From NCBI GenBank assembly GCA_033675265.1, contig JAUJYZ010001237.1, positions 41,001-105,000 of the forward strand: a DNA stretch of 64,000 nucleotides, read 5' to 3'. Below are positions 44,901 through 47,900 of this stretch, one piece after another (the stretch's first letter is position 1; each line of letters opens with the position of its first letter). This DNA comes from Actinostola sp. cb2023. Taxonomy: Eukaryota; Cnidaria; Anthozoa; Actiniaria; Actinostolidae. The translations under genes and the position numbers were made by a program. The notes beneath the pieces are model-generated. The model did no database searches and was not told the origin of the DNA. It worked only from the letters and a program-made list of their open reading frames with translations.

Positions 44901-47900
44901 AACAAAAGGTTAGTATCCATGGTGATGATGTTAGTATCCATGGTGATGATAGTAGTATCAATGATGATGATGATGTCATAATCTGGGAGAAGCTAGTGTT
45001 TAGTATTCATGGTGATGATGTTAGTATCCATGGTGATGATGATGTCATAATCTGTGAGTAGCTAGTGATTAGTATCAGTGTGATGATAATATATTAGTAT
45101 CCATGGTGATGATGAGGAGTCAGTGATTAGTATCGATGGTGATGATATTAGTATCCATGGTGATGATATTAGTATCCATGGTGATGATGATATCATAATA
45201 TGGAGGAGTTAATGACTATAGTATCCATGGTGATGATATTAGTATCCATGGTGATGATGGCGTCATAATCTGAGAGTACCAAATGATTACTTTGAATTAT
45301 CTTAAAGACGCCTTGTAACCTCGCCTTGTGACATAAGTGAGTGTAGAAGGTTTACAAAATGAAACAAAGTTTACCGAACGAACTGTCAGTCTACCTTGTC
45401 AAAGAAGAATTCCGTACTACAGTTTCTCGTTCCAGCTTCAAGCGCTTTCGCCGTTGCTTTCCCATCGATGTTCGACGACATCATGAAAGCAGCGATGGCA
45501 TCAGTGTCGTTCCCTCTCATGACGCTAAAGCAGTTATTCACTTTGTAGTGCGTACGAAAGCCAAAGAACGAGAACATGATGATACTCGCCCACAACGAAG
45601 TCCCGGAGTTTGTAATGGTAATAATGAGAGCATCCGAGTAAAAGTTGTTATTGCGTTTATTCCCGCTCGAGAACAGTATCAAGCCACCGTAGCCTATACT
45701 CAAGGAGAAGAAGATCTGCCCCGCTGCATCCATCCACACTTTGATGTCTTTAAGAGACTCAAGCTGTAAGGAAATACAAGGGTCAAATTGTAAGGGAATG
45801 CAAGGGTCAAGCTGTAAGGAAATGCAAGGCTCAAGCTGTAAGGAAATGCAAGGGTCAAGCTGTAAGGAAATGCAAGGCTCAAGCTGTAAGGAAATGCAAG
45901 GGTCAAGCTGTAAGGAAATGCAAGGATCAAGCTCTAAGGGAATGCAAGGATCAAGCTGTAAGGAAATGCAAGGATCAAGCTGTAAGGGAATGCAAGGGTC
46001 AAGCTGTAAGGAAATGCAAGGCTCAAGCTGTAAGGAAATGCAAGGGTCAAGCTGTAAGGAAATGCAAGGATCAAGCTCTAAGGGAATGCAAGGATCAAGC
46101 TGTAAGAAAATGCAAGGATTAAGCTGTAAGGAGCAAGGAGCAAGCTCTAAAGGAATGCAAGGATCAAGCTGTAAGGAAATGCAAGGATCAAGCTGTAAGG
46201 GAATGCAAGGATCAAGCTGTAAGGGAATGCAAGGATCAAGCTGTAAGAAAATGCAAGGATTAAGCTGTAAGGAAATGCAAGGATCAAGCTGTAAGGAAAT
46301 GCAAGGATCAAGCTGTAAGGGAATGCAAGGATCAAGCTGTAAGGGAATGCAAGGCTCAAGCTGTAAGGAAATGCAAGGATCAAGCTGTAAGGGAATGCAA
46401 GGATCAAGCTGTAAGGGAATGCAAGGATCAAGCTGTAAGGAGCAAGGATTAAGCTGTAAGGAGCAAGGAGCAAGCTCTAAAGGAATGCAAGGATCAAGCT
46501 GTAAGGAAATGCAAGGATCAAGCTGTAAGGAAATGCAAGGCTCAAGCTGTAAGGAAATGCAAGGATCAAGCTGTAAGGGAATGCAAGGATCAAGCTGTAA
46601 GGAAATGCAAGGCTCAAGCTGTAAGGAAATGCAAGGATCAAGCTGTAAGGGAATGCAAGGCTCAAGCTGTAAGGAAATGCAAGGCTCAAGCTGTAAGGAA
46701 ATGCAAGGGTCAAGCTGTAAGGAAATGCAAGGATCAAGCTCTAAGGGAATGCAAGGATCAAGCTGTAAGAAAATGAAAATGCAAGGATTAAGCTGTAAGG
46801 AGCAAGGAGCAAGCTCTAAAGGAATGCAAGGATCAAGCTGTAAGGAAATGCAAGGATCAAGCTGTAAGGGAATGCAAGGATCAAGCTGTAAGGGAATGCA
46901 AGGATCAAGCTGTAAGAAAATGCAAGGATTAAGCTGTAAGGAGCAAGGAGCAAGCTCTAAAGGAATGCAAGGATCAAGCTGTAAGGAAATGCAAGGATCA
47001 AGCTGTAAGGGAATGCAAGGATCAAGCTGTAAGGAAATGCAAGGCTCAAGCTGTAAGGAAATGCAAGGATCAAGCTGTAAGGGAATGCAAGGCTCAAGCT
47101 GTAAGGAAATGCAAGGCTCAAGCTGTAAGGAAATGCAAGGGTCAAGCTGTAAGGAAATGCAAGGATCAAGCTGTAAGGGAATGCAAGGATCAAGCTGTAA
47201 GGAAATGCAAGGATCAAGCTGTAAGGAAATGCAAGGATCAAGCTGCAAGGAGCAAGGATCAAGCTGTAATGAATGCCTTTTATAAGGAAATGCAATAATC
47301 AGATCATGCTCTACAATATATAAGCAAAGTAACTCTGCATGAAATGTATTGCTGAGAGACAAGGTATGAAACACATCCCCATACCAAATACCCGACACTT
47401 ATATATCAGAGCACCCCCGGGCTTTCACCCGCTCCATGTGGTCACGGGAAGATGCAGGGACAAAGGAGGGAAGGAAAATTGAGGCAAAAAGAGAAAAGGA
47501 TGAGAGGGAGGAGGAATACTCACACTTTTCACTGTAAACAACAGTGACAGACCCTCGGCCCAGCCTTCAAGTTTTACCGCTACGAAAAAGAAGATGACCA
47601 GATTGACGACTATCAGAAGTAGGATCAAAAGAAACGCCTGGAAGAAAAAAGTTACACATTAGACCTCTTTCAGGAGGACACGTCCGAGTAAGTACTAAAT
47701 TATCAGTTTGAAATAATTTCGTAATTGTAAAAAAAATCATAATTGCTCATAATACGGCTCTGTCGTCGTGTACCGGAATCTATTGTTTTACAATACAATA
47801 GCAGAGTGTAGAGTCGTTTGTTTTGAACATTATTCCATTGTGAACACCGTTCTTTGTTAACCGGTACACGACGGCACTACCCATAATTCTCGGCGTTCAA

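Follow-up and report, generated by a model that had tools for sequence, protein, structure and literature searches.

A minisatellite of splice-acceptor copies next to exon 5 of a sea anemone SLC6 transporter gene, probably of the mirage kind

The fourth intron of an SLC6 transporter gene in the sea anemone Actinostola sp. cb2023 ends in 63 head-to-tail units (47263–45764, minus strand) that adjoin exon 5, each copying the 3' end of the intron together with about six exon bases. The gene lies in a window of 64,000 nucleotides, the whole stretch of contig JAUJYZ010001237.1 that was analyzed. The array, its anatomy, the duplication of blocks within it and the homologue-matching residues at the exon junction are read directly from the DNA and its translation, and an array of this kind is far beyond chance. 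With a probability of roughly three in four, we interpret it as a minisatellite of the mirage kind, in which the founder copy would still serve as the exon 5 acceptor and make the main mRNA. Among the possibilities raised in a preliminary description of the same DNA, the use of the last unit only appears to be the best supported.

Host gene and anatomy of the array

The coding part of the gene (41990–51037, minus strand) comprises nine exons separated by GT-AG introns of 353–1760 nt, with a single open frame of 855 amino acids; a pseudogene reading was rejected on the strength of these exons and this frame. The nearest class is the XTRP3/B0AT-like type, with B(0)AT1 and XTRP3 as the solved structures closest in sequence, and the closest named homologues come from sea anemones. 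Among the matches listed, an XTRP3A-like protein of Actinia tenebrosa ranked first (65%), a shorter query placed Exaiptasia diaphana at the top (67%), and the stony corals Stylophora and Montipora reached 47 and 48%. Proteins or transcripts of the source species itself did not occur among the protein matches, the best of which stood at 65–67%. In a Pfam scan of six gene pieces, with exons 7 and 8 lying outside them, the SNF domain (PF00209) matched four, three above the Pfam cut-off, and gave no match on the pieces covering exon 4 and the final exon. The domain and the complete exon set together identify the gene as an SLC6 (SNF) transporter.

Exon 4 (47524–47637), which encodes TM5, ends in phase 0 at a GTGAGT donor; exon 5 (45395–45763), which covers the loop and TM6 onward and includes a PF00209 match, begins in phase 0. 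Exons 6 (44676–44880) and 7 (44232–44076) of the nine-exon model follow, all on the minus strand. The exon 5 donor at 45395 (AAG/GTAGAC, the slash marking the junction) is weak, yet the residues across it match those of Actinia (FFFDK/IPDG here, FFFKQ/IPEG there). About 20 bases past the exon 7 donor, intron 7 carries a (TAG)n microsatellite of 857 bp with 98% matches (43200–44056).

Several other repetitive features occur in the window. Inverted repeats at 33137–35217 and 37060–40956, with arms that are 97–100% complementary (565, 460, 303, 266, 265 and 226 nt), are probably recent mobile elements, and related arms are found at 13376–14148. Minus-strand open reading frames at 7716–10332 match reverse transcriptase, RNase H-like and ALOG domains and perhaps represent a DIRS-like retrotransposon, the ALOG domain being what we take to be the link to such an element. 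At 1817–4183, two arrays of a 12/36-bp unit bearing GTCGAC lie in opposite orientation and overlap a pair of 458-nt inverted arms (98%).

The preliminary description had reported about 60 copies of the real acceptor abutting exon 5, and such an array is indeed present; TRF called it at 45759–47273 with a period of 24 and 63.6 copies. Delimited individually, 56 units measure 24 bp, six measure 21 bp and one measures 30 bp, so that of the two unit sizes initially given, 24 bp stands and 18 bp is represented by no unit. The units fall into 15 types in a non-periodic order, the commonest, CTTGATCCTTGCATTTCCTTACAG, having 17 copies. Counted over the stretch 47300–45740, TTTCCTTACAG occurs 31 times and CCTTACAG 50 times, and the 16-mer TTTCCTTACAGCTTGA, the acceptor string once said to recur in almost every unit, is present 30 times, fewer than that. 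When the 56 units of 24 bp are compared, leaving out the seven of other lengths, 15 of the 24 positions are invariant and ten distinct variants are found. One string of eight units is present twice, strings of six and five units twice each, and one four-unit string three times. When the units were randomly reordered 2000 times, a repeated string of eight arose just once, so blocks of units were evidently duplicated. An expansion introduced by assembly, with a true array much shorter, would have a precedent in amphioxus, where passages of PMC3087553 describe the BflGb6 array as seemingly misassembled in the genome draft. However, 15 unit types in non-periodic order are unlike simple stutter, and this explanation is extremely improbable.

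Exon 5 opens with CTTGAG, the six bases with which unit types C and G also start, indicating that the repeat crosses the splice junction. The last unit (45764–45787, minus strand), which is the real exon 5 acceptor, contains a TTGAC whose A (45783) is separated by 19 nt from the G of its AG; the T that it carries at positions 1 and 12 is shared by no other 24-bp unit. The penultimate unit (45788–45811, minus strand) has lost its AG (CAA) and is the sole unit of 63 without one at its end. Both units carry variants absent from every other 24-bp unit, as is expected of boundary copies. At the upstream end, the minus-strand flank (47264–47300) contains a degenerate stretch that resembles a unit and ends in ATTACAG.

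The units as splice sites and as open frame

The real acceptor lies at 45764/45763. Exon 4 ends in phase 0, exon 5 begins in the same phase, and the units, all multiples of three in length, are in phase with exon 5, as had been stated. An AG after a pyrimidine tract ends 62 of the 63 units, the real acceptor included, and a branch-point-like TTGAY or TTAAY is found in 48 of 63; the other 15 are the 11 units of types C and G, which read TTGAG, and the four of type F. Acceptor strength was scored with an approximate matrix of rounded frequencies rather than with MaxEntScan, and on this matrix the real acceptor reaches 9.01. Upstream of it, the array contains 80 AGs, of which 62 stand at unit ends, the flank contributing one and the units themselves 61. 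On the same approximate scale, 54 of these 62 score 8.06–10.29, near or above the real site; 27 equal or exceed it, and 50 lie within 1 bit. Seven unit ends reading TTAGAG and the flank AG (2.78) score about 3, and the remaining 18 array AGs score 0.14 or 6.4–6.7. By comparison, among AGs outside the array, 14 of 3382 on the gene strand (a count that includes the real acceptor) attain the real acceptor's score, as do 12 of 4049 on the plus strand. The proposal that the units copy the real acceptor is supported, and on the approximate matrix most of them score like it.

Because the penultimate unit lacks an AG, the closest competing acceptor lies 48 nt upstream of the real one. The gene strand of the array (1500 bp) contains a single GT, inside the last unit, so that alternative acceptors are possible and cassette exons hardly so; cassette exons within the array were rejected on this ground. 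The plus strand of the array carries 55 donor-like GTAAG motifs.

Followed upstream into intron 4, exon 5's frame remains stop-free over 545 codons, in agreement with the earlier observation that the units contain no gene-strand stop, and with these phases the use of any upstream unit would keep the frame, as anticipated. The openness carries little weight, because exon 5's frame was also open in 90% of 20,000 shuffled units whose CTTGA start and ACAG end were held fixed. About one period in three is divisible by three by chance, and an array that is all in frame and stop-free is not beyond chance. The ten variants of the 24-bp units, a sample of low power, comprise six non-synonymous and four synonymous changes, where fractions of 0.67–0.72 non-synonymous, 0.22–0.28 synonymous and about 0.05 stops are expected, depending on the transition bias assumed; at this power they give no sign of protein-level constraint on the repeat peptide. 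A protein-coding array under selection is unsupported, given the expected openness and the lack of any sign of constraint in this small sample. Triplet-length indels were rejected as coding evidence, as they reflect just two or three independent length changes. A Cornifin (SPRR) match of the array translation (E 1.2e-30) was put down to repeat composition rather than homology.

The exon 4–5 junction in homologues

Of the 120 listed homologues (of 1139 found), 116 have a protein segment of 33 residues spanning the junction; Actinia has one of 34, and the remaining three have 35, 23 and 17. An eight-residue insert at the junction occurs in none of these 120, and the motif L[DEN]PC in 0 of 138 fetched proteins. 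A search with the array translation, scoring the 7994 candidates with most words in common, returned five proteins, namely four SLC6 proteins with alignments covering 12–20% of the query and a fifth, P0138, whose weak match at 25% identity was judged spurious. The ladder of isoforms suggested by the preliminary description thus gains no support from the listed homologues, the fetched proteins or the unit variants. Such isoforms may exist in the source species itself, which would be compatible with these data, the best protein matches (65–67%) being from other species.

These comparisons bear on two related explanations. According to the first, upstream units would be used at a low to moderate level, mostly without function, adding inserts of 16 residues or more to the TM5–TM6 loop. 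The 54 of 62 upstream unit-end AGs that score 8.06 to 10.29 against 9.01 on the approximate matrix, together with a frame open throughout the array, are consistent with such leakage. So are the human IFI6 minisatellite, which supplies used alternative donors according to parts of PMC4526556, and the human data in sections of PMC9225289, where upstream 3' sites are often favored. However, no such insert is seen in any listed homologue (120 of 1139) or fetched protein, whose best matches, at 65–67%, are from other species, and we consider this explanation unlikely. According to the second, array length would determine how widely the transporters vary in loop extension, and these variants would be of importance to the animal. 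Unit lengths of 21, 24 and 30 bp, all multiples of three and in frame, fit this idea, but openness is expected at 0.90, the ratio of six non-synonymous to four synonymous variants (at low power) resembles no constraint, and segment length is nearly invariant among the 120 listed homologues (of 1139), which makes it highly improbable.

The junction alignment comprised P0001 and 12 of the 17 proteins found with the shorter query; the other five (P0129, P0130, P0133, P0136 and P0137) and P0138, from the search with the array translation, were left out. Immediately after the junction the residues are LESLKDIKVW here, LEPLKDIQVW in Actinia, LDPLKDINVW in Exaiptasia and LDTLKSIDVW in Nematostella, as compared by protein alignment. 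One entry, P0123 (a JGI record), reads ...NDFLIFSQ/LDSLKDIQVW and has 47 intron-looking, repeat-free residues before the junction, ending in Q, as CAG would give. It is apparently a genomic read-through of a relative's intron into exon 5, without the array. Taken from this one read-through-like entry, the array would be younger than the intron, and its absence in relatives is likewise suggested by protein entries. P0126, P0127, P0128 and P0132, which are less similar, give a like picture, with a Q just before the same column, and P0124 begins at MQ just before it; judged from these protein entries, the intron position looks common to lineages beyond anemones. Four entries are uninformative on this point: P0125, P0131 and P0134 begin downstream of the junction, and P0135 diverges at its start there.

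The same entry is relevant to the possibility that the array acts as a decoy, its pyrimidine tracts and branch-point-like motifs titrating U2AF/U2 or PTB and thereby slowing or regulating the removal of intron 4. The terminal AG after a pyrimidine tract in 62 of 63 units and the TTGAY/TTAAY motifs in 48 of 63 would suit such a role, whereas P0123, the sole anemone-like read-through entry, is without an array; we regard a decoy function as very unlikely.

Second array, origin and relation to known systems

Intron 5 (514 nt) contains a second array (44909–45288, minus strand), with 21-bp and 69-bp periods and nine copies of the branch-point-like TACTAAY. Its last TACTAAC (44909–44915, minus strand) is the probable branch point, since its A (44910) precedes the G of the exon 6 AG by 29 nt, a distance expected of a branch point. 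Outside this array, 56 of the 5829 windows of 34 nt in the introns of the SLC6 gene contain TACTAAY; a looser branch pattern matches at four of eight acceptors (exons 4, 5, 6 and 9) and at none of the other four. In two adjacent introns, then, the 3' end is occupied by an array derived from that intron's own splicing signals. In the one gene read, this is a lead and not a rate; it points to intron 3' ends as possible seeds of minisatellites. A broader scenario would have more than 50 near-equal acceptors leak into mRNA, yielding graded in-frame transporters whose spread is set by inherited array length, and, together with the intron 5 array, would make intron 3' ends in this genome hot spots for splice-signal minisatellites. 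We hold that combination to be distinctly unlikely.

Under the mirage interpretation, the ancestral 3' end of intron 4, with its branch point, pyrimidine tract and AG, would have been duplicated in tandem together with about six bases of exon 5, and blocks of units would have been duplicated again, so that the array grew into the intron. The founder copy would remain the exon 5 acceptor and yield the main mRNA, being used mainly through its closeness to exon 5 and its sequences. Upstream units would be used rarely if at all, and the in-frame phase would make leakage less harmful rather than useful. The intact gene, together with junction residues and a segment length like those of homologues, favors this interpretation, as do the P0123 entry, the duplicated blocks, the 15 of 63 units without TTGAY/TTAAY and the amphioxus precedent. 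Length instability between haplotypes is a further mirage trait, and the DNA analyzed here represents one haplotype. Three hallmarks are present: tandem units span the intron–exon boundary, ending in the acceptor AG and starting CTTGA(G); 62 of 63 copies end in AG; and concerted evolution is evident in the repeated inner blocks and excludes the boundary copies, the last two units bearing private variants.

The rules of 3' splice-site choice bear on the mirage interpretation from both sides. In human data, Carranza and others found upstream 3' sites favored overall, strongly under intron definition and less so under exon definition, and proposed an exon-centric rule for comparable 3' sites, treating 365-nt introns as exon-defined; Reed and Maniatis, as cited there, observed that when two 3' sites competed, the upstream one was selected (PMC9225289, in the sections available). 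The intron lengths of the anemone gene would suggest exon definition, if human sizes apply, although the weak exon 5 donor weakens this argument. By an upstream-preference rule, the first units, giving a 260-nt intron, would win, which counts against use of the real site, as do the approximate scores of the 27 upstream AGs at or above its own and the 50 within 1 bit. The array offers a natural experiment on 3' splice-site choice, in which 54 upstream sites near or above the real score compete for one donor, and in which intron-centric and exon-centric proximity rules predict opposite array ends.

Among the matches listed in open-licence literature, no cnidarian case of a minisatellite of splice acceptors was found. 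Tandem alternative 3' splice sites of the NAGNAG or short-range type likewise place several in-frame acceptors before one exon. Those sites are generally pairs a few bases apart with one branch point in common, whereas 48 of the 63 copies here have a branch-point-like motif of their own. The minisatellite of human IFI6 (6-16) resembles the present array in that its units supply splice sites. There, however, they are multiple donors, two downstream repeat units being reported as used to give three mRNAs (passages of PMC4526556, citing Turri 1995), whereas the anemone units supply acceptors, the gene strand of the 1500 bp holding one GT, in the last unit.

The closest likeness is to the mirages of lancelets (amphioxus), which are tandem copies of intron–exon boundaries in the genes for Adh3, the globins BflGb6 and BflGb9 and troponin C, with similar repeats in PGBD5, as described in parts of PMC3087553 and PMC3902484. 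In both animals, minisatellite-like copies span an intron–exon boundary, carry many AG or GT signals and evolve in concert internally, with boundary copies exempt; in amphioxus the latter escape homogenization, and RT-PCR results suggest that regular splicing persists (same portions of PMC3087553 and PMC3902484). The amphioxus genes are still regularly spliced as far as tested in those accounts, and the anemone gene probably is as well. Units of 24 bp here compare with 10–72 bp in Adh3 and about 150–160 bp in the globins, and 63 copies with three or six in BflGb6, according to the same excerpts. The present case further differs in being a cnidarian gene with acceptors only and with a branch-point-like array in the next intron; mirages would extend from lancelets to a cnidarian, with two neighboring introns affected.
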